This document shows positions 5,838-20,861 of a stretch of 21,233 bases of DNA, in pieces. This DNA is from Clostridia bacterium (GTDB taxonomy: Bacteria; Bacillota_A; Clostridia; Oscillospirales; CAG-272), in NCBI GenBank assembly GCA_017462445.1, contig JAFTRB010000227.1, positions 1 to 21,233 of the forward strand, in the 5' to 3' direction. Both the position numbers and the translations under genes were made by a program. Within the stretch, counting starts at the first letter, position 1; each line of letters starts with the position of its first letter. The notes under the pieces were generated by a model that made no database searches, was not told where the DNA came from, and saw only the letters and a list, made by a program, of their open reading frames with translations.

Positions 5838-7103
5838 ATGAAAAAAAGCAGAATTATAATCAGCTGTCTTCTTATTTTCGCATTCCTTCTTTCCCTCTCC
5901 TCCTGCCTTATGCTTGATGATGGCAAGAGCGGTGATTATATGACCGAGGAGGATGTCAGAAATCTGATAAGCAGTCAGCTGGGAGAGAATGTGACCGTCG
6001 AGGGCGGAGACAACTATAACATCAATATCGAGGGAAGCGCAACGGTGGCAAGCGCGGCGGCGAAGGGCCTGCTCAGCGCGGTCAGTGTTGAATGCAACTT
6101 CACCGTTCGCAGCGGAATATACCCCTCCAAGACCACAAAGGCAACCTCCTCCGGCTCGGGAGTGATCTACAAGCTGGATAAGGAGAACGGCAACGCCTAT
6201 ATCATCACAAACTACCATGTTGTCTATCACAATATGTCCACCACCTCAGGCGGAATCAGCGACGATATAACCCTCTACCTGTATGGCTCCGAGCCACAGA
6301 CCATCAGCGGCTATGGCATCAAGGCGAGCTATATCGGCGGCTCTATGAATTACGATATCGCGGTGCTGAAGGTTGAAAACAGCGCGGTGCTTGCAAGGAG
6401 CAACGCAAGGGAGGCAGAGTTTGCCGACTCCAATAACGTCTCGGTGCTTGATATGGCAATTGCGATAGGAAATGCGGCGGCCGCGGGCATATCGGCAACA
6501 GTTGGATATGTGAATGTGGACAGCGAGTATCTCGAGATGGAGGGAGCTGACGGCTACACCCCCATCAGCCTGCGTGTTATGCGTATTGATACCGCGGTCA
6601 ACGGAGGAAACTCGGGCGGCGGGCTCTTCAACGAAAGGGGCGAGCTTATCGGTATAGTCAACGCCAAGCTTGTGGACTCCGACATCGACAACATCGGCTA
6701 CGCCATTCCCTCCAATGTGGTCAAATATATCTCCGACAACATTATCTACTACTGCGACGGCACGGATAAGACCTCCGTCTACCGCTGCATTCTCGGCATC
6801 ACGGTAAATGTCACCGAGGCGCACTCCGAGCTTGATACCGAAACAGGCAAGGTGGTACGCCGTGAGACGGTTACAGTAGGCTCGGTTCTTGATGACTCGA
6901 TAGTCAAGGGTCTGCTCGAGGCAGGGGACATAATCAAGTCAATCACCATCGACGGCAAGACCTACGAGGTTGACAGAACCTTCAAGGTTATCGACAGTAT
7001 GCTAAACGCCAGGGTTGGCTCTACCGTTACCTTCAACATCATTCGCGGCTCGGAAATGTCGGTAGATATCAGCATAACCGAGGACACGCTGACACAATAC
7101 TGA
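5838..7103 (+). CDS. HtrA/DegP-like S1C serine protease lipoprotein with PDZ domain
   Basis: This 421-residue protein is predicted to be exported and lipid-anchored: a basic N-terminus and hydrophobic stretch end in a lipobox LSSC with Cys23. The trypsin-like domain has H127 in TNYHVV, D173 in NYDIAVLKV, and nucleophile S259 in GGNSGGGLF, so the catalytic triad is complete. A C-terminal PDZ-like domain at about 313-418 carries the usual LLEAGDIIKSI and VGSTVTFNIIRG elements. Such proteases act in envelope protein quality control. Residues 30-75 form a low-complexity linker with a MTEEDVRNLI helix. TAGGAG at 5823-5828, nine bases before the ATG, supports the start. Lipidation is unusual for HtrA proteins, which are more often anchored by a membrane helix. 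The gene appears monocistronic. Confidence 0.9.
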   Translation: MKKSRIIISCLLIFAFLLSLSSCLMLDDGKSGDYMTEEDVRNLISSQLGENVTVEGGDNYNINIEGSATVASAAAKGLLSAVSVECNFTVRSGIYPSKTTKATSSGSGVIYKLDKENGNAYIITNYHVVYHNMSTTSGGISDDITLYLYGSEPQTISGYGIKASYIGGSMNYDIAVLKVENSAVLARSNAREAEFADSNNVSVLDMAIAIGNAAAAGISATVGYVNVDSEYLEMEGADGYTPISLRVMRIDTAVNGGNSGGGLFNERGELIGIVNAKLVDSDIDNIGYAIPSNVVKYISDNIIYYCDGTDKTSVYRCILGITVNVTEAHSELDTETGKVVRRETVTVGSVLDDSIVKGLLEAGDIIKSITIDGKTYEVDRTFKVIDSMLNARVGSTVTFNIIRGSEMSVDISITEDTLTQY

Positions 7104-9679: not shown

Positions 9680-10678
9680 ATGGCGGATAATGCAATGAAA
9701 ACGGTCTTTTCCGGTGTTCAGCCCTCCGGAAACCTGACCATAGGAAATTATCTGGGCGCAATAAAGAACTTCACACGCTTCAGCGAGGAATACAAGACCT
9801 TCTACTGTGTCGTTGACCTCCACGCAATAACGGTAAGACAGGTGCCCGCAGATCTCAGGAGAAGAACCTACGAGACTCTTGCCCTCTACATGGCTTGCGG
9901 TCTTGACGAAAAGAAGAATACCCTCTTCGTTCAATCCCAGGTTCCCCAGCACGCAGAGCTTGGCTGGATACTCGACTGCTATACAATGTTCGGCGAGCTT
10001 TCGCGTATGACACAGTTCAAGGACAAGAGCGCAAAAAACGCATCCAACATCAATGCGGGGCTCTTCACATACCCCACCCTGATGGCGGCGGATATCCTTC
10101 TGTACCAGACCGATATAGGTCCAACCGGCATAGACCAGTAGCAGCACATAGAGCTTGCAAGGGATATAGCCCTCCGCTTCAACCAGCTCTACTCCGACAC
10201 CTTCCGCATACCCGAGCCGTATATCCCCACCGACACGATGAAGATCATGTCCCTGCAGGAGCCCACCGCAAAGATGTCCAAGTCTGACCCTAACCCGATG
10301 GCTGTGGTCTATATCCTTGACTCCAAGGATGACATTATGCGCAAGTTCAAGAGGGCTGTGACCGACTCCGAGACAGAGGTAAGATATTCCGAAGATAAGC
10401 CCGGCGTATCCAATCTTATGACCATCTACCGCGCCTTCACGGGCAAGAGCTTTGAGGAAATAGAGCGCGAGTTTGCAGGGCTTGGCTACGGCGACTTCAA
10501 GCTGGCGGTTGGCGAGGCGTGCGCTGACGGACTCGCCCATGTAAGGGAGGAGTTTGCAAGGCTTATTGCAGACAAGGCGCACCTTGAGGCGGTAATGCGC
10601 GCGGGAGCCGAGGAGGCCTTCGGCTACGCAAGGCGTACAATGAGCAAGGTAAGAAGAAAGATTGGCTTCGTCGGCTAA
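9680..10678 (+). pseudogene. trpS: Tryptophanyl-tRNA synthetase interrupted by in-frame TAG
   Basis: The reading frame encodes a full-length class Ic TrpRS of 332 codons (usual bacterial length about 330), except that codon 154 (10139-10141) is TAG. The enzyme charges tRNA-Trp. The frame is intact on both sides: before the stop are the HIGH-like TIGN motif at 20-23 and [14 protein letters not shown]; after it come QHIELARDIALRFN, then KMSKS at 198-202 and PGVSNLMTIY. Most TrpRS proteins read G-x-D-Q-K-Q-H at this point, so the change is AAG to TAG, one base, at a conserved lysine beside the active site. An ATG at 10238 opens the second half but has no ribosome site. As drawn the product would be a 153-residue inactive fragment. 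Possible explanations are an assembly or sequencing error, a decayed second copy, or amber suppression. AGAAAGG at 9666-9672 supports the start. Confidence 0.85.
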
Positions 10679-10788: not shown

Positions 10789-10824
10789 GGGGTTGCCCGT
10801 GGGCAGCCCCCATTTTTATTTTTC
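10789..10824 (+). terminator. Intrinsic terminator between convergent trpS and germination genes
   Basis: GGGGTTGCCC (10789-10798) and GGGCAGCCCC (10801-10810) form a long GC-rich stem that is followed by ATTTTTATTTTT. Read on the + strand it is a strong terminator for trpS. On the - strand the same hairpin lies just after the stop codon of the germination gene but lacks a U-run there. The T-tract overlaps the end of that gene. Confidence 0.8.
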
Positions 10825-12261
10825 GCTTCTCTGCGCGGCTGCGCCCCCTTCGCTCTCGCCGCTGTCGCCCACATCGCTTTTCTTAAGCCGTAACACAAGC
10901 CTCTTCATCGCTCCCCAATCAAAGGGAATAAGCGGATAGAGATAATGCCTTTTGCCTGTAACCGTGGTGTTGGTGGCAACGAGGAATATGAAGACCAGCA
11001 AGCCGAGCAGAAGCCCCCAAATGCCGAAGGCATAGACAAGAAGAAGGATTATCACGCGGATAAACTTGAAGGCATAGCCAAGCTCCACATTCTGCTGAGC
11101 GAAGTTGGCAATCGCGATAAACGCCATATAGAGAATGACATCGGCACAGAGCCAGCCCACCTGTACGGCAAAGTCACCGAGGATAAGCGCACCCACCACA
11201 GAAAGAGAGTTTGATAGCATATCCGGCGTATTCATGGAGGCAATCTTAAGTCCGTCTATTGCCAGCTCAACAAGAAGCAGCTGAAGAATGATGGGCAGTG
11301 CCCCCGGGTCATCGGGAATTAAAAAGCGCAGGAAATCGGGCAGCGCGTCGGCATACTCGAGGTAGAGATACCAAAGCGGTGTTGCCACGACAGACAGAAG
11401 GAGTATGACCGTTCGCACAAGCCTCAGATATGTGCCGGTCAGGGGCGGAAAATAGAAGTCATCGGTCTGCTGGATAAAGGCAAAAATAGATGTCGGTAAA
11501 ATCATAACCTGCGGCGTGGTGTCGCAGATAAGGAGTATACTCCCCTCCAGAACCTGGCTGGAGGCGGTGTCGGGCCGCTCGGTGAGCCTGATCTTCGGGA
11601 AGGGATTGAGCCAGCCCCTCTTAATCAGGCTCTCCGCCAAGGACTGGTATCCCAGGGTAAGGCTATCGGGGCGAAGGGCGGCAAGCTTCCCCGCAATCAA
11701 ATCAATTGTCTGCCTGTCCGCCACCCCGTCCATATAGCACATAACCACATCGGTAGCGGAGGAGCCGCCCAGATTGAAGTGGCGCATTCTGAGCCTTGGG
11801 TCCCTTATCCTGCGCCTGATGAGGGCGGTGTTCATAACGAGAGTTTCAACAAAGCCGTCTCTTGCCCCCTGCATAACTCTGTCGGTGTCAGGCTCGGCGG
11901 TAGTCCTTGCAGGGTATGTCCTGGCATCAACGAGTATAGCCATTGCACCAAAGCTCTGTCCAAGAACACAGGCCTGCCCCGACAAAACAGCCCTGACCAG
12001 GGTTGGTATCTCACAGCTCAGCTCGACCTCCACATAGGGAAGCCTGGCGGCAACATACTCGGCACTGCCGCTTTCATCCATAGTCATCAGCGTCTGCATA
12101 ACCCTCTGCATCTCGCCATCCTTGGTAAAGCCGTCTATATAAAAGAAGCATAGATCCTCGCCACCGACATGCAGATGGCGCTCTATAATATCAAAGCTCT
12201 CGGTGGCAAATAATGCCCCGCGAAGCCTTGTAACATTTTCACTGTGTTTTTCTCCCAGCAT
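10816..12261 (-). CDS. GerA-family spore germination protein (SpoVAF/GerAA-like)
   Basis: This 481-residue protein belongs to the GerA family, which sits in the inner spore membrane and takes part in germinant sensing or ion and DPA release. A soluble N-terminal region of about 280 residues contains the signatures GARDGFVETLVMNTALIRRR (131-150) and SSATDVVMCY. The segment LPTSIFAFIQQTDDFYFPPL precedes hydrophobic segments at about 282-302, 321-343, 352-385 and 400-430. The tail is polar and acidic. The ATG at 12261 follows a GGGAGG site; the longer frame to 12369 has none. No GerAB or GerAC partner and no other spoVA gene is adjacent, so it stands alone. The wording of the N-terminal motifs looks closer to SpoVAF than to receptor GerAA subunits, but I cannot confirm that without alignment. 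Confidence 0.85.
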   Translation of the reverse strand: MLGEKHSENVTRLRGALFATESFDIIERHLHVGGEDLCFFYIDGFTKDGEMQRVMQTLMTMDESGSAEYVAARLPYVEVELSCEIPTLVRAVLSGQACVLGQSFGAMAILVDARTYPARTTAEPDTDRVMQGARDGFVETLVMNTALIRRRIRDPRLRMRHFNLGGSSATDVVMCYMDGVADRQTIDLIAGKLAALRPDSLTLGYQSLAESLIKRGWLNPFPKIRLTERPDTASSQVLEGSILLICDTTPQVMILPTSIFAFIQQTDDFYFPPLTGTYLRLVRTVILLLSVVATPLWYLYLEYADALPDFLRFLIPDDPGALPIILQLLLVELAIDGLKIASMNTPDMLSNSLSVVGALILGDFAVQVGWLCADVILYMAFIAIANFAQQNVELGYAFKFIRVIILLLVYAFGIWGLLLGLLVFIFLVATNTTVTGKRHYLYPLIPFDWGAMKRLVLRLKKSDVGDSGESEGGAAAQRSEK

Positions 12262-12397
12262 AGTCCCTCCCTGTGTTAATATTCCCCTTCGGTTCAAAAA
12301 TATACCTCTGCCGCATAAATGTAAATAATTATTGTCATAAATCAAGAATGCCCTGTTTTTTCTTGACACGGGTCCTGATTATTATTTGCAATCCTTA

Positions 12398-15734: not shown

Positions 15735-16310
15735 CTACGGAGCAGGAGGGAGGAAAAGCGGCCGCATACATTCTCCCCTTGCGGCAAGCTCGACACAGTC
15801 GGGAAGCCTGTCAAAGTCGGCAACCAGGGAATGGGGCTTGCCCTTTGGGTCATCCTGGCGCATCGGCACAAAATAGACCGCCCTGCGAGTAAGAAGCCTT
15901 GCCAGGGCTGCCAGGCTCTGTGAGAGGGCATCGTTGCTGGCCAAGGCAATCAGGACCGTCCTGTCCGAGCGAAGATGCGCCTTGATAGCCATCAATGCGG
16001 CAGAGTCGGTGATACCGTTTGCAAGCTTTGAAAGAGTGTTCCCCGTGCAGGGAGCAACCACGAGCAAATCGAGCGGAAGCCTCGGCCCAAGTGGCTCTGC
16101 CGCCTCTACGGTGTGAATGATTTTTTCACCCGAAAGCGCCTCCACCTCACGGCGAAGGTCCTCCGCAAGGGCAAAGCGAGTGTCGGTAGTATATACCCGC
16201 TCGCTCATTATCGGAACAATCTTGTGTCCCCTATTGATAAGCTCTGCCATACAGGCAATCGAGCGGGACAGGGTGCAGAATGAGCCGGTGAAGCAATAGC
16301 CTATCTTCAT
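15735..16310 (-). CDS. dpaB: Dipicolinate synthase subunit B
   Basis: This 191-residue flavoprotein-like subunit works with DpaA to form dipicolinic acid from dihydroxytetrahydrodipicolinate in the mother cell; DPA with calcium fills the spore core. The start MKIGYCFTGSFCTLSRSI is the family N-terminus, with the phosphate-binding TGSFC loop of the flavoprotein fold. PLDLLVVAPCTGNTLSKLANGITDSA is the second strong family block (here read over two stretches, residues about 80-105), and LVADFDRLPD marks the C-terminal part. The ATG at 16310 overlaps the dpaA stop as ATGA, and GGAGG lies upstream; a longer frame from 16328 adds six residues and is unlikely. The stop is TAG. Expression is expected late in sporulation (SigK in Bacillus), which I infer from the family only. 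Confidence 0.92.
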   Translation of the reverse strand: MKIGYCFTGSFCTLSRSIACMAELINRGHKIVPIMSERVYTTDTRFALAEDLRREVEALSGEKIIHTVEAAEPLGPRLPLDLLVVAPCTGNTLSKLANGITDSAALMAIKAHLRSDRTVLIALASNDALSQSLAALARLLTRRAVYFVPMRQDDPKGKPHSLVADFDRLPDCVELAARGECMRPLFLPPAP

Positions 16311-17029
16311 GTCTCCACCTCCCGGCATAGACTCCTTTTAATCGACTCTGCCCAGGCTCTGCCGGCAGCCCTCGGATAGTGCCTGGCAGGGAGGGCGGAC
16401 AGACGGGTTATGTCATGACCGGGGAAATTATCGCCCGGGGCAAGCTCGAGAACAGGCAGTGTGGGCGGCGGCAGAACGGTTCTTGCCGGGGCGGTATTGA
16501 CAAGGAGAGAAACCCTATCGAGAACCTCGCTGTCGGAATAGTCAGAGCTTGGTACACCGGAGCCGCCAAGCTCCAGCCTGACAGAATGTCGGGATGTAAA
16601 AACGCGAGTGGGAATGCCAAGCGAGAGGAGCATGCGCACAAGGATTTGCCCAATTCTGCCATAGCCGACAACCCCAACCACAGCCCCCTCGTCATCTATG
16701 GCGGAGCTGTGGAGAATATAGCCCAGCGCGGCCAGGGCGGTAAGACGGGCGTTTTCAAGAAGGAAGGCTTCATCAAGGGCAGAGTCCACGACCACCACTC
16801 CCCTCTCCCTTTCGCGTCGGGCGAAGGCGGGCGGAATTTCATAGCCGCATATAATCTCCCCCGGGGCAAAATCAAGCGAGTCGAGCAGCTCCTCTCCCCT
16901 GCCCAGGTGAACGCCGTCAGCAGAGGTCGGAATAGGCAGAAGCCACCCCTCAAAATGCGGACAAAGAGAGCCGAGCGCCCTCGAGCATTCCCTGCTCCTT
17001 TCGTCATTATTGTAAATCTTTATATACAT
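16307..17029 (-). CDS. dpaA: Dipicolinate synthase subunit A
   Basis: This 240-residue subunit has an NAD(P)-binding Rossmann region, VVGVVGYGRIGQ with G122, G124 and G127, preceded by the TALAALGYILHSS helix. It is the dehydrogenase-like partner of DpaB. The C-terminal LPARHYPRAAGRAWAESI matches the proline-AG motif near the end of the family. The protein is shorter than the roughly 290-300 residues usual for DpaA; the loss seems to lie in the N-terminal half, which is also the least conserved part here. The ATG at 17029 follows GGAGA; the longer frame to 17110 has no ribosome site and crosses a 35-bp dyad. It is first in the dpaA-dpaB operon, and the presence of the pair argues against the alternative EtfA-linked route used by some clostridia. 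Confidence 0.88.
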   Translation of the reverse strand: MYIKIYNNDERSRECSRALGSLCPHFEGWLLPIPTSADGVHLGRGEELLDSLDFAPGEIICGYEIPPAFARRERERGVVVVDSALDEAFLLENARLTALAALGYILHSSAIDDEGAVVGVVGYGRIGQILVRMLLSLGIPTRVFTSRHSVRLELGGSGVPSSDYSDSEVLDRVSLLVNTAPARTVLPPPTLPVLELAPGDNFPGHDITRLSALPARHYPRAAGRAWAESIKRSLCREVET

Positions 17030-17049
17030 TATTTCTCCAATATTTTTCA

Positions 17050-17084
17050 ATTTATTTAACACGGGCAGCCCGAATTGAATAAAT
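17050..17084. promoter_or_regulatory. 35-bp centred dyad upstream of dpaA
   Basis: ATTTATT, five bases, CGGGC-A-GCCCG, five bases, AATAAAT: both the inner and outer arms are perfect and share one centre at 17067. It lies 21 bp before the dpaA start. The single-base loop argues for a DNA-binding site of a symmetric regulator more than for an RNA hairpin. The regulator is unknown. Confidence 0.5.
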
Positions 17085-17152
17085 CCTCTTTCCCCTCGGC
17101 AAATCGACACAAGGGGATACTATATTATATTCCCCCTTCACCTCTTTAGTTA

Positions 17153-17196
17153 ATAAAAAATAATGGGCGTGGCACCGTTAGCGGTGCCGCGCCCAT
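17153..17196 (-). terminator. Intrinsic terminator of the lipoprotein gene
   Basis: On the - strand the stem formed by the arms ATGGGCGcGGCACCG and CGGTGCCaCGCCCAT (17163-17196, loop CTAA) is followed by TATTTTTTATT. It lies about 60 bp after the lipoprotein stop codon and separates the sigma factor locus from dpaA. Confidence 0.88.
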
Positions 17197-17258: not shown

Positions 17259-18758
17259 TTACTTCAGCGCCTCGGTGATGCGGTTCTTGCGAGCTGCAAG
17301 ATACTCCTTTGCGCTGGTCTCGGCGTCATCAATAGCCTTGTCAAGAGCCGCCTTTGCATCAGCCATCTTATCAAGAACAGCCGCCTTCTTCTCCTCTATC
17401 TCGGCAAGCTCCTCCTCGGTAAGCTCAAGGCTCATCTTCTCCTTGGCCTCGGTTGCCTTCTCCTCGAACATATCAGCAACGGTGCGAAGATCTGCGGAGG
17501 AAAGACCGTCGGCAGTTACCTCGTCAAGCTTGCTTGCGATGTCCTCGAAATCTGTAACGATAATGTCGATAGTCTCCTTTACTGCCGCGGGAGCAAGGGT
17601 AAGAAGGCTCTCGATCGCCTCAAGCACGCTCTTTGCGGCATTGATAACAGCCTCGATCTGGGGCTTATACTCGGCAAGAGTCTCCTGAACTGCCGCGCTG
17701 ATCTCGCTCTCAACCTCCTCAAGGGATGCGGTAAGCTCATTCATCATAGCGGTGAGTTCCTGGCCCTCTTCGGAATTCTTGAAGGTCTTGTCGGCATACG
17801 CCTCGATGGAAGCGATGGTTACATTGCCGTTGCTATCCTTAATAGCGGTGGCGTCCTCAAGACCAAGAGCCTCTACCGCAAGAGCGATCTGCTCCTCGTT
17901 AAGCTCCTTGTTGGAAAGCTCCTCAAGATAATCCCAGGCTATCGCAAAGGTATCAAGGCTTCTCGCTATCATCATATACGCCTGATATGCGCCGCCATTT
18001 ACAAATGCGGTGGGATTTGTCATAGCCTTCTTTGCAAGATACTCATAGTATACAAGATCCTCGGCTATACCAACAGAGTAGTCATAAGCCGCCTGAGCTG
18101 CGTCGCGCGCCTCATTGAAGGCGTCGGTAGCGAACTGCTCCATCTTAGTGTATCTATCGTTTACATAGTTAACAAGCTCGGTGGTGTCCATCTCAACAGC
18201 CGCCTCGATGCTGATCTCGCCGTTCTTAGTAGCGGAAAGAGCAAGCTTGAACTCGGGAACTGTAATGCTCTGTATTCTCTCGTTATCGGGATACTTTTCC
18301 TTAAGCGCCTCAAGACGGCGGTTTACAGAGTAGGATGCGGCGGTGTCAACGGTAAGCTCGAAGCTGTCGGCGGTTGCCTGAGCCTTAACGGCATCGGTAA
18401 GCTTTGCCTCAAGTCTCTTTGCGTCCTTGTCGGCGGCAACAGAAAGACCTACAACGGTGTTGTCCTCGGCAAGATAGCCATACTCAATAGCAAGCTCGGT
18501 AATCTTCTTTACAGCGGCCTCTGCATCAAGGCCCTCAAGAGATGCCTCACCGTAGAACATTACCTGGGCGTCCTCATTCGCGCAGCGGAAGGAAACAACC
18601 TTGTTTTCGTGATCAAGCACAAGCTCGACCTCAGGGTTGATGTCAACCGCAACATAGGTGGTATTGCCCTCCGGAGTCGGCGTGCCACAGGAGCCAAGAA
18701 TGGCAAGGCAGGACAGAAGGAGCGCAGCGGATAGAATCAGGGAAATAATTCTTTTCAT
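17259..18758 (-). CDS. Lipoprotein with RsgI-like Asn-Pro domain and coiled-coil tail
   Basis: This 499-residue protein has a lipobox LGSC with Cys24, so it should be anchored on the outer face of the membrane. Directly after it, YVAVDINPEVELVLD carries the Asn41-Pro42 pair of the RsgI extracytoplasmic domain, continued by YGYLAEDNTVVGLS at 93-106. The upstream anti-sigma factor has the same two blocks with almost the same distance between them (52 against 54 residues). From about residue 130 on the protein is rich in Ala, Glu, Lys and Leu with heptad character, ending in a long predicted coiled coil (about 400-499). It has no catalytic motif that I recognise. It has its own ECF-type promoter (18795-18825) and a terminator, but follows the anti-sigma gene by 79 bp. 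It may bind the anti-sigma domain, the same ligand, or the cell wall; this is inference. AAAGGAA supports the ATG. Confidence 0.8.
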   Translation of the reverse strand: MKRIISLILSAALLLSCLAILGSCGTPTPEGNTTYVAVDINPEVELVLDHENKVVSFRCANEDAQVMFYGEASLEGLDAEAAVKKITELAIEYGYLAEDNTVVGLSVAADKDAKRLEAKLTDAVKAQATADSFELTVDTAASYSVNRRLEALKEKYPDNERIQSITVPEFKLALSATKNGEISIEAAVEMDTTELVNYVNDRYTKMEQFATDAFNEARDAAQAAYDYSVGIAEDLVYYEYLAKKAMTNPTAFVNGGAYQAYMMIARSLDTFAIAWDYLEELSNKELNEEQIALAVEALGLEDATAIKDSNGNVTIASIEAYADKTFKNSEEGQELTAMMNELTASLEEVESEISAAVQETLAEYKPQIEAVINAAKSVLEAIESLLTLAPAAVKETIDIIVTDFEDIASKLDEVTADGLSSADLRTVADMFEEKATEAKEKMSLELTEEELAEIEEKKAAVLDKMADAKAALDKAIDDAETSAKEYLAARKNRITEALK

Positions 18759-18794
18759 AGTGGTATTCCTTTCGTTTTTGTTTTATTTCTATTA

Positions 18795-18840
18795 GTTATA
18801 CAAGCAAACCATAACTTTTGTTGCAGGAAAAACAAATTTA
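18795..18840 (-). promoter_or_regulatory. ECF-type promoter of the lipoprotein gene
   Basis: On the - strand AATTTGTTTTTCC, TGCAAC (18825-18820), 17 bases, then TGTATAAC (18802-18795). The same elements at the same 17-base spacing occur before the sigma factor gene. The upstream block begins at the stop codon of the anti-sigma gene. Confidence 0.75.
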
Positions 18841-20247
18841 TTTTCCCGCTGAAAAATAATTTTCAAGCGAGCCGTATTTTTCTATAAGAGCAGCCTTGAA
18901 GCTCTCCAGCTCATCCCTGTCAATAGCAGCCCTGTCGGGTGAATAATCCTCGGCATACTCGGACAGACGGGAGTTAAGCTCCGAGAGGCTAAGGGCCTCC
19001 AGCTTTGAAAGGAAGCTCTCACGGCTGTCAGGCAGCTCAAAGATGTCGGACAGCTCCTTGCCAATCACTCCTGTGGCGGATAACAGGCCGATAAGCTCCT
19101 CGCCTCGCTCTATAAACAATTCCTCACTCATATACTCAATAAGCCCGATAAGCAGCTCGGTGGAGGTGGGAGAATATGCTGTATGGAGCAGCGCAAGCGA
19201 TGCGCCATCAAGGATCTCTGCGCCGTACTCGCTCTTGTAGGTGTAAAGCTTTGTTTGCATCTGCGACATCAATTCACCAAACTCGGGAGTATATTCATAG
19301 TTACCCTTAATTACGCTGAAGTAGCCCTCTCCCACAAACAAAATGCGAGTTGGGTTATCCCCGTGTGAAATTATTTGCTCCTCAAGCCTCCATATCTCAT
19401 CAAGCAGGGCGGCGTGAGCGCGCAGCTTTTCCATGTTTCGGTCAAGAGATGAGAGAATGTAATCCATCAAGTCCTGCTTAAGCACCTGCTGCTCATATTT
19501 TTCCTCTATTTCGCCTTCCTCGGTTTCAAGCGCAAGCCTCTCGCGGAACAGTTCGGGCAGCTCGGAAAGCTTCGAGAAATCCATCTCTGTCATACCAAGA
19601 ACCTCAGCAAGGCTATCCTCGCTCAAGCCCCTAAGCACAACCGCGCCAAACAGCCCACGCTCAATAAGCCCTTCCTCGATTTTTGCGCCAAGCCCGGTCG
19701 CCTCGCCCTCTGTGCTCAGGCGGAGAGCGTCACCCTCGGGGTCAAAGTAGCCATACTTAACGCACAGCTCCACATACTCGACCACCGCCACATCTATCTC
19801 CTTGCCAAGCACAAGCGAGTCCATCTCGCCCGACGAAAGCAGTACATCTCCGTCGCTTCCCAGGGACTTGATCCCGGTTACGACTCCGTCCTTGGTAAGC
19901 AATGCAAAAGAGGGGTTAACCTCAATTATATACACGCCCTCCTCGGGAGTTCCACCCACAAAGGCAAGGACAATAGCCAGCGCCAGGACAAGCATAGCGC
20001 AGGCGCTGACCAGCGCGGGTACCCACCTCGGCAGGCTGAAAAGCCTCTGCCAAAGCCCCTTCCTTTGTCCGTCCTCGGGCTTTTTTCCCTCGTCAACCGC
20101 GCGGAGTGGGGAAAGCTCCGCCTCCTCGGCATCCTCTGTGGCTATCGGAGCATCCAAAAGCTCCTGTGATGCGACAGGCGCAACCGCATCAAGCTCGGCA
20201 AGCCACCTATCCCGCCACTCGGGCATATCAACAAATTCTTCCTTCAT
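18838..20247 (-). CDS. Single-pass anti-sigma factor with RsgI-like extracytoplasmic domain
   Basis: This 469-residue protein has a cytoplasmic N-terminus of about 75 residues, one membrane helix at about 76-98, and a large outer domain. The outer domain begins VYIIEVNPSFALLTKDG, with Asn111-Pro112 placed as in RsgI proteins, where C. thermocellum members are reported to self-cleave at this bond as a step in signalling. YGYFDPEGDALRLS at 165-178 follows. The remaining roughly 250 residues are acidic and helical and match nothing I recognise. The cytoplasmic part lacks the His-x3-Cys-x2-Cys zinc motif of many ECF anti-sigma factors; EWRDRWLAELDAV may be its sigma-binding helix. The gene starts two bases after the sigma stop codon, with GGAGGA inside the sigma gene as ribosome site, so the two are translationally coupled. 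This position is the main reason to call it the anti-sigma factor. Confidence 0.78.
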   Translation of the reverse strand: MKEEFVDMPEWRDRWLAELDAVAPVASQELLDAPIATEDAEEAELSPLRAVDEGKKPEDGQRKGLWQRLFSLPRWVPALVSACAMLVLALAIVLAFVGGTPEEGVYIIEVNPSFALLTKDGVVTGIKSLGSDGDVLLSSGEMDSLVLGKEIDVAVVEYVELCVKYGYFDPEGDALRLSTEGEATGLGAKIEEGLIERGLFGAVVLRGLSEDSLAEVLGMTEMDFSKLSELPELFRERLALETEEGEIEEKYEQQVLKQDLMDYILSSLDRNMEKLRAHAALLDEIWRLEEQIISHGDNPTRILFVGEGYFSVIKGNYEYTPEFGELMSQMQTKLYTYKSEYGAEILDGASLALLHTAYSPTSTELLIGLIEYMSEELFIERGEELIGLLSATGVIGKELSDIFELPDSRESFLSKLEALSLSELNSRLSEYAEDYSPDRAAIDRDELESFKAALIEKYGSLENYFSAGK

Positions 20248-20249
20248 GC

Positions 20250-20792
20250 CTATGCTCCTCCTTCCTCGCCGAGCGCCGCTCTCATTTTTTCAAGCGACCT
20301 CTTATATTTTGATGTCACCGTTCCGAGCGGAAGCCCCAGCTCGTCGGCAATCTCTCTGTGCTTATATCCAAAAATTACATACAGAACAACAATGCGCTCC
20401 TCCTCGGGGCTAAGGACCCTATGCATTGTGTCCATAACCGAGCCGTCAGACATCTCAAAGGAGTTCTCCTCCTCCGTCATCCGTCTTTCCAGCTCGCCCT
20501 CGTCAAGCCCATACTCGACCCTTCCGCGCTTCTTTATGATGTTTAAGGCGAGGTTCTTGGCAATCTGCAAAATCCAAGGGAGCGCAGGCCTCGATATGTC
20601 ATAGGATTTTATATTCTGCTTTATCTTAAGGTACACCGTTTGCATAGCGTCCTCGGTGTCCTCGGTATGCCTCAGATATGAATACAAAAAGGCGTAAACA
20701 CCTCGCCGCGTTCCAAGATACAGCTCGGCAAAGGCGTTGTTGTCGCCCTGTCGAACCTCCCTGAGCAATCGGTCAATCTCAAAGCCTGTCAT
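20250..20792 (-). CDS. ECF-type RNA polymerase sigma factor
   Basis: This 180-residue protein has only regions 2 and 4, as in extracytoplasmic function sigma factors. Region 2 spans about residues 17-90 (AFAELYLGTRRGVYAF, then DTEDAMQTVYLKI and WILQIAKNLALNIIK). Region 4 spans about 125-172, with LSPEEERIVVL and the helix-turn-helix EIADELGLPLGTVTSKYKR. There is no SigI-type domain although its partner looks RsgI-like. The ATG at 20792 is favoured: GAAGGG precedes it and the -10 box of the promoter lies at 20815-20822, inside the longer frame to 20846. It directs RNA polymerase to envelope-stress or sensing genes; the matched promoters here suggest it controls its own gene and the lipoprotein. 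The stop is TAG. Confidence 0.9.
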   Translation of the reverse strand: MTGFEIDRLLREVRQGDNNAFAELYLGTRRGVYAFLYSYLRHTEDTEDAMQTVYLKIKQNIKSYDISRPALPWILQIAKNLALNIIKKRGRVEYGLDEGELERRMTEEENSFEMSDGSVMDTMHRVLSPEEERIVVLYVIFGYKHREIADELGLPLGTVTSKYKRSLEKMRAALGEEGGA

Positions 20793-20814: not shown

Positions 20815-20861
20815 GTTATACAATTCGGCATCCGCATTTGTTGCAAGGAAAAACAAATTCA
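20815..20861 (-). promoter_or_regulatory. ECF-type autoregulatory promoter of the sigma gene
   Basis: On the - strand AATTTGTTTTTCC, TGCAAC (20845-20840), 17 bases, TGTATAAC (20822-20815). It is the twin of the promoter in front of the lipoprotein gene, with a one-base insertion between the upstream block and TGCAAC. The leader to the start codon is only about 15 bases. Confidence 0.75.

Follow-up and report, generated by a model that had tools for sequence, protein, structure and literature searches.

The three genes of the locus

The window, the whole stretch of 21,233 nucleotides from Clostridia bacterium analysed here (contig JAFTRB010000227.1), contains three consecutive genes that encode a sigma factor of the extracytoplasmic function (ECF) type, a membrane protein assigned as its anti-sigma factor and a predicted lipoprotein. 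The last two proteins share an outer domain, and one promoter-like element precedes both the sigma and the lipoprotein genes. The three genes and their features lie on the minus strand.

The sigma factor gene (20250..20792) encodes 180 amino acids from an ATG codon; an alternative TTG start would lengthen the open reading frame (ORF) to 20846. The product matches the Pfam families Sigma70_r2 (2e-11) and Sigma70_r4_2 (8e-12), both over cut-off, and TIGR02937 (sigma70-ECF) also passes its cut-off. No region 3 appears among the Pfam matches, which comprise regions sigma2 and sigma4 only.

The adjoining gene (18838..20247, 469 amino acids) begins 2 bases past the sigma stop codon. Its product would be the anti-sigma factor, a role assigned from the gene order and consistent with a transmembrane (TM) helix at residues 75-97 (19957..20025; AlphaFold model helix 75-97 and hydropathy) and with the SEAL fold of an RsgI-like outer domain. 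The sigma factor would be bound by a candidate segment at residues 9-35 (20143..20223), a conserved N-terminal block of alignment A2 with the motif W-R/K-x-x-W/L-x-x-E-L-D-x(3)-P-x(7)-A-P-I. A second motif, H-x-D-N-P-like, is placed at residues 296-299 and is seen again within the helical portion of many anti-sigma factors from clostridia.

The third gene (17259..18758, 499 amino acids) encodes a SEAL domain (Pfam RsgI_M, 1.5e-19) followed by a helical C-terminal region of about 350 residues; its structure model has a predicted local distance difference test score of 87 and a predicted template modelling score of 0.80. The reading of this product as a lipoprotein in the first-pass annotation of this DNA is borne out by the lipobox cysteine, Cys24 (L-G-S-C, 18687..18689), which is invariant in 48/48 alignment rows and is the predicted site of lipidation. 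A 15-bp hairpin 3' of the stop codon (17163..17196, no strand assigned) is a possible terminator, weakly supported since terminator-like sites in the stretch are no commoner than in shuffles.

The relatives of these proteins are found mostly in clostridial metagenome genomes. The closest listed anti-sigma relative has 57% identity, and at least one homologue exists, a lower bound because scoring was limited to the candidates with the most words in common. Among the lipoprotein matches listed there are a 99% near-copy, one at 48% and others at 31-42%.

A shared outer domain with a predicted self-cleavage site

The SEAL/RsgI_M domain comprises residues 102-208 of the anti-sigma factor (19624..19944) and residues 34-140 of the lipoprotein (18339..18659). 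The two proteins match each other by BLASTP (E = 1e-5, 26% identity). Comparison of the family profiles gives a probability of 99.0 and an E-value of 4.5e-18 over 112 columns, limited to the SEAL domain; the large helical regions of the two families are not related by profile. Both outer domains are modelled with the RsgI outer-domain fold, each protein being matched to RsgI structures. Thus Pfam, profiles, fold and alignment to PDB chains agree with the earlier proposal of a common RsgI outer domain, and unrelated folds, which would have spoken against it, were not found.

The genes, the strand and the sequence motifs are as the first-pass annotation described them. In the anti-sigma factor, N111-P112 is followed by YGY-N9-LS at 165, 54 residues downstream; in the lipoprotein, N41-P42 is followed by the same motif at 93, 52 residues downstream. 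The predicted self-cleavage bonds are Asn111-Pro112 (19912..19917; invariant in 26/26 rows) and Asn41-Pro42 (18633..18638; invariant in 48/48 rows). In both proteins the Asn-Pro pair is located at the beta1-beta2 turn, the aligned Pro is the residue at which the PDB RsgI chains start, and the models place the beta1-Asn-Pro-beta2 arrangement close to the membrane. By analogy with RsgI, both SEAL domains would cut themselves.

RsgI_N has no Pfam match in the anti-sigma factor up to E = 1; the same scan found RsgI_N in the RsgI of locus L075 at 2.3e-11. Because RsgI_N is absent and the partner is an ECF sigma factor instead of SigI, the protein is filed as a SEAL-domain ECF anti-sigma factor that would work like RsgI, and not as RsgI proper.

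A promoter element common to the sigma and lipoprotein genes

An element not noted in the first-pass annotation, TGCAACAAA-N13-TTGTATAAC, lies 5' of the sigma gene (20815..20845, minus strand) and again 5' of the lipoprotein gene (18795..18825, minus strand), in the gap past the anti-sigma gene. The full elements, TGCAACAAATGCGGATGCCGAATTGTATAAC before the sigma gene and TGCAACAAAAGTTATGGTTTGCTTGTATAAC before the lipoprotein gene, are near-identical, with the same spacing, and no third match occurs on either strand of the window. A consensus scan lists no sigma-70-type promoter at either place. Autoregulated ECF promoters carry AAC in the -35 and CGT in the -10 element, according to the accessible text of PMC8103513. 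The AAC core of the window -35 (GCAAC) agrees with this, whereas the -10, TTGTATAAC, has TGT and not CGT; a -10 with CGT is present in some relatives.

The element was counted in 80 loci from the lipoprotein alignment plus the window. A first regular expression, too narrow at the -10, gave 4/67 and 3/77 matches. The later expression was composed after viewing the regions upstream of the ECF and lipoprotein genes in 24 loci, so its counts are partly fitted. The strict element was then found before 42/67 ECF genes and 47/83 RsgI_M genes not directly after a sigma gene, 0/45 anti-sigma genes and 2/925 other ORFs, with 2/1340, 3/1660 and 1/900 in shuffle controls. A matrix derived solely from those 42 ECF sites, themselves chosen with the later expression, exceeded the 1% control level at 55/67 ECF genes, 54/83 of the same RsgI_M genes and 1/45 anti-sigma genes.

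Sorting by gene order, in which six of the 83 RsgI_M genes were dropped, places the element before 49/58 lipoprotein genes in the order ECF, anti-sigma, lipoprotein and before 45/67 ECF genes, the window's own included in both counts; both genes carry a site in 36 of these 58 loci. All four lipoprotein genes at contig edges have it, compared with 1/45 anti-sigma genes and 3/926 other ORFs, one of the three being an extra gene within a trio locus. The wiring is tested most cleanly by the three controls (anti-sigma genes, stand-alone lipoproteins and other ORFs) and by the genome searches described below. Judged on sequence, a common promoter for the sigma operon and the lipoprotein gene is well supported.

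Targets per genome and unlinked lipoprotein genes

In the genomes of 16 relatives, the strict element has 28 sites, 27 of them in this locus, and a reversed-pattern control has 1. Twenty-six of the locus sites precede ECF or lipoprotein genes and one precedes a gene for an extra 179-residue membrane protein (genome G005); one genome has no strict site and three have a single one. When up to two mismatches are allowed, the count rises to 41, of which 32 lie in the locus and 9 outside it, and the reversed pattern gives 14. Two alike sites before a SpoIIID-like gene in G005 and G007 were not counted as targets, as their -35 resembles what is presumably the -35 of sporulation sigma-E. In 13 Acholeplasma-group genomes, searched with their own element variant, there are 23 sites, 19 in the locus and 4 elsewhere, with a control of 0. 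The sigma factor thus seems to serve little beyond its own operon and the lipoprotein.

Co-occurrence was assessed in 297 genomes of one order, some of which also supplied rows to the search alignments, with window-type cut-offs (anti-sigma E <=7.1e-39, lipoprotein E <=1e-50) set after the lists were seen. The window-type anti-sigma factor occurs in 30 genomes and the window-type lipoprotein in 32. The lipoprotein is present in 26/30 genomes with the anti-sigma factor versus 6/267 without it (Fisher 1.4e-27, a value that ignores kinship); it is therefore far from consistently absent, the outcome that the first-pass annotation had named as contrary to its proposal.

Nineteen of the 26 genomes with both genes have them within 3 kb, and seven do not. 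Where the lipoprotein gene lies on another contig, the site was kept in four of five genomes (G113, G130, G276 and G190), with weaker sites in the fifth (G225, unlinked). Whole-genome searches of G113, G130 and G276 found exactly two sites in each: the first precedes the ECF gene, the second the lipoprotein gene on a different contig; G113 and G130 look closely related and are not independent. Sites at both the ECF and the lipoprotein genes were read locally in G190, and G052, split by contig ends, has both. In G096 the ECF locus and the lipoprotein gene are 10 kb apart and the site is at the lipoprotein gene only; in G265 the one site is at the ECF gene, and a window-type lipoprotein is absent. 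G045 has the window-type anti-sigma factor, but its lipoprotein is no more than a weaker match (1.8e-39), encoded on a separate contig next to a different ECF gene. That the promoter appears to have stayed with the lipoprotein gene when the genes came to lie apart is the strongest single argument for the link.

Recurrence with SigI and with another outer domain

RsgI_M is present in 64/151 genomes of the same order, from which 90 RsgI_M places were taken, two trio loci already in the sample being left out; flanks of 3.5 kb on each side were examined and sigma types were assigned by our hidden Markov model labels. Seventy-one places are sigma/RsgI_M pairs, 60 with an ECF factor and 11 with SigI, and the remaining 19 have no paired sigma gene. 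The pairing of ECF factors with RsgI-like anti-sigma factors is therefore common, and not the oddity that the first-pass annotation took it to be. A second RsgI_M protein adjoins ten of the 71 pairs, six ECF and four SigI.

In the four SigI-RsgI operons (L184, L206, L207 and L210) the second protein is encoded downstream. The pattern ACCC[CT]-N18..24-CGTAN[TC]CTAT, written after comparing upstream regions and based on what we take to be the SigI-type promoter consensus, has six matches in 1.94 Mb of loci. It precedes both sigI and the copy in L184 and L207, the copy in L206 and sigI in L190, and is absent from L210; three of the four SigI trios therefore have it before the copy. The L207 copy has lost the Asn (Lys-Pro) and has no lipobox. 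A sliding comparison of upstream regions found a shared promoter in L171 and L207 and none in L161, L174, L176, L184, L203, L206 and L210; the best match in L174 is an artefact, because the regions upstream of its two genes are opposite strands of a single gap.

In the Acholeplasma group, the locus order is ECF, anti-sigma, SEAL lipoprotein. In the three anti-sigma factors scanned, the outer region matched no Pfam family, and homology to the clostridial anti-sigma factor was not found (probability 6.8%). A second locus (L256-L266), ordered lipoprotein, ECF, anti-sigma, occurs in 7/19 genomes of the group, and its lipoprotein repeats the non-SEAL outer region of the anti-sigma factor, spanning most of it (model positions 41-69 to 335-351). 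All five of these lipoproteins for which the start was available have a lipobox and an upstream promoter element. In three combinations (ECF with SEAL, SigI with SEAL and ECF with another domain), then, a sensor-domain copy appears to be controlled by the sigma factor that matches it.

In genome G111, an ECF-adjacent protein (L193, 3282-4889) consists of a cytoplasmic segment, one TM helix and the whole lipoprotein-type outer region, which matches the lipoprotein profile at E 1e-52 over positions 4-501. As judged from this match, the outer part of the lipoprotein can occupy the sensor position of an anti-sigma factor.

Proposed mechanism and comparison with known systems

These results are probably best explained by a nearly private loop, in which the sigma factor induces a lipoprotein copy of its own sensor domain that most likely serves as a feedback or load-sharing partner. 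The one-TM anti-sigma factor would hold the ECF sigma factor inactive through its short cytoplasmic segment, as suggested by the gene order and the conserved motif. By comparison with RsgI, the SEAL domain of the anti-sigma factor would cut itself at Asn111-Pro112 and remain joined as one beta sheet. A stimulus would then pull the domain apart, the site-2 protease RseP, which scores over cut-off in 18/20 relatives' genomes tested, would cut the membrane stub, and the sigma factor would be freed. Subsequently, the free sigma factor would transcribe its own operon and also the lipoprotein gene, the latter from a second copy of the promoter. Confidence in these steps is good.

The lipoprotein would then be displayed on the membrane through the same kind of joint, bearing its large helical region, and would act on the outside step sensed by the anti-sigma factor, most likely by drawing to itself the load or partner by which the sensor had been pulled apart, which would close the loop. 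A functional partnership of the lipoprotein with the sensor is favoured, with rather less assurance than the preceding steps. That it acts as negative feedback is a tentative choice among the possible signs, and the sign is the weakest step. Feedback is favoured because a sigma factor that activates its own operon and has a single additional target calls for a brake, and because the extracytoplasmic partners RseB and CseA are brakes; both the contact with the anti-sigma factor and the direction of the feedback are putative.

The SigI-RsgI systems of Bacillus subtilis and Clostridium thermocellum likewise have the SEAL/RsgI_M fold with Asn-Pro, one TM helix and adjacent sigma and anti-sigma genes. 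In contrast to them, the window has an ECF sigma factor, an anti-sigma factor with a short conserved N-terminal segment instead of RsgI_N, and an added sigma-controlled lipoprotein with the same domain. RseB, which is not known to be related to RseA in sequence, is an extracytoplasmic partner in the E. coli RseA/RseP pathway. It shields the anti-sigma factor from cleavage and is thought to mask the protease site, as far as the accessible text of PMC10202637 goes, whereas the window anti-sigma factor is expected to cut itself. The self-cleavage, RseP and ClpXP steps of SigI-RsgI are described in the portion available of PMC12203970, which also presents C. thermocellum RsgI9 as carrying a SEAL domain but having no sigma factor of its own; unlike RsgI9, which is transmembrane with a cytoplasmic region, the window copy is a lipoprotein without such a region, under a sigma promoter. 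CseA of Streptomyces coelicolor is also an extracytoplasmic lipoprotein encoded with an ECF sigma factor, and its loss raises sigE promoter activity; in the excerpt consulted of PMC6767563, that system lacks an anti-sigma factor, sigmaE does not drive the sigE promoter and CseA is not described as a copy of a sensor domain. A literature search, to which subscription papers were closed, found no paper on a sigma-controlled lipoprotein copy of a sensor domain. The parts are hence of known kinds (ECF sigma factor, SEAL domain, lipoprotein) and the wiring is the new result.

More speculatively, and with limited confidence, ECF and SigI envelope sigma factors could follow a general design in which the dedicated output is a lipoprotein copy of the outer domain of their own anti-sigma factor. 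Within it, the self-cut SEAL pair could exchange or re-cap beta1 strands, so that a lipoprotein able to be released would re-cap the sensor and thereby reset it; a copy built on some other domain would be a competitor for the sensor's partner. That the arrangement recurs with SigI and with an outer domain of unrelated kind points to a rule, that the sigma factor makes a sensor copy, and not to an accident. A sigma factor whose regulon appears to amount to scarcely more than one gene, itself bearing the sensor's own domain, makes the resetting of SEAL/RsgI sensors directly testable. The rule also offers a prediction of targets for uncharacterised ECF systems in uncultured clostridia.

Contrary evidence and alternative explanations

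Several observations weigh against the proposed loop. The anti-sigma factor matches RsgI_M at only 4e-4 (21.4 bits), under the curated Pfam cut-off of 25.3 bits. The residue two before the Asn is Glu in 19/26 anti-sigma factors and Asp in only 2/26, against Asp in 46/48 lipoproteins, and the third residue past the Pro is Glu in 48/48 lipoproteins and in 0/26 anti-sigma factors. Because the motif departs from the canonical form, cleavage of the anti-sigma factor may be slower or absent; RsgI2 likewise lacks that Glu, yet its solved chain starts at the Pro. The strict element precedes 0/5 lipoprotein genes in the order lipoprotein, ECF, anti-sigma (two pass the matrix) and 0/10 stand-alone lipoprotein genes with no adjacent ECF operon (L018, L019, L021, L024, L032, L038, L039, L046, L047, L056). 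The family therefore also serves outside the loop, and the element appears to track the sigma gene and the lipoproteins tied to it, not the SEAL domain as such. An element search in 12 genomes (control 0) found none in five and one each in G096 and G111.

The number of targets and the distribution of copies add to these points. One relative has a further target in the locus, the 179-residue multi-TM protein (L112, 2256-2795), and the four Acholeplasma-group sites outside the locus mean that the regulon is small and not always of two. A second copy is missing within 3.5 kb on either side of 61/71 pairs. The SEAL lipoprotein of the Acholeplasma group adjoins an anti-sigma factor without a detectable SEAL domain, so contact between SEAL domains is not the whole story there; these bacteria have no cell wall, and wall tension is therefore not the signal in that group.

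The main competing explanation, itself doubtful, is that the lipoprotein is purely an effector of the sigma factor: a linker or shield at the cell surface, attached by a self-cut joint, which stress would remove and which would then have to be replaced. The anti-sigma factor would carry the same joint as a strain gauge that fails when the linkers fail, and the lipoprotein would neither touch the sensor nor feed back on it. This explanation would account for the joint being all that the two families have in common by profile, for the lipoprotein being almost the sole target found, for the promoter retained by unlinked lipoproteins and for the stand-alone SEAL lipoproteins without it, as expected of a protein with its own job. 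In seven Acholeplasma-group genomes, however, the outer region common to lipoprotein and anti-sigma factor has no detectable resemblance to SEAL, so that a common joint is not the general reason for duplicating a sensor domain. Next comes a decoy or competitor that binds and removes the external ligand of the anti-sigma factor, which is somewhat less likely again. A sensor-domain copy under sigma control, the extent of the Acholeplasma-group copy and the G111 anti-sigma factor with the whole lipoprotein-type outer region all speak for it, the last having slightly raised the weight given to it; against it stand the profile comparison, which relates the window families through SEAL alone, and a candidate ligand that is only hypothetical. 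Among the roles offered by the first-pass annotation, feedback or co-sensing fits and has gained from the promoter wiring, and a plain ligand decoy has become somewhat less likely in the window because the families share no large helical region.

A positive co-sensor, forming a mixed SEAL complex by beta-strand exchange after cleavage and so promoting dissociation of the anti-sigma factor and amplifying the signal, is improbable. It could draw on the beta1-Asn-Pro-beta2 arrangement modelled near the membrane in both proteins and on the same element at the sigma operon, but the extracytoplasmic partners CseA (PMC6767563) and RseB (PMC10202637) are negative in what was accessible of both sources. 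The least credible explanation by far is a chance neighbour, a widespread lipoprotein domain co-transcribed beside an ECF operon; RsgI_M is indeed common in the order (64/151 genomes), but the gene has its own copy of the sigma promoter, even on another contig, it co-occurs with the anti-sigma gene, and the arrangement recurs with SigI and with another domain. The promoter counts, the unlinked sites and the co-occurrence already contradict it.

Further targets and other genes in the window

The multi-TM protein of L112 (2256-2795) has a weak Amastin/MARVEL resemblance, and its gene has its own element between the anti-sigma and lipoprotein genes. In L233, L234 and L235, the extra Acholeplasma-group sites precede genes for a pair of similar membrane proteins, each some 170 residues long, and for a secreted protease of the subtilisin-like type; these genes, whose families were judged by eye, are possible further targets.

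Elsewhere in the window, a tRNA-synt_1b gene on the plus strand, which we take to be Tryptophanyl-tRNA-synthetase-like, is in two pieces (9680-10141 and 10238-10678; model positions 7-160 and 187-287, the pieces scanned apart), through a frame break or an assembly error. Two minus-strand stretches, 10816-12369 and 15735-17110, contain a gene for a spore germination protein of the GerA family (PF03323, 1e-122) and one for a flavoprotein (PF02441). The flavoprotein gene adjoins a gene with no Pfam match at 1e-5, whose product presumably resembles dipicolinate synthase, and from the GerA and flavoprotein region the host is probably a spore former. On the plus strand, 5838-7103 encodes a secreted or lipoprotein-like trypsin-family serine protease (PF13365).

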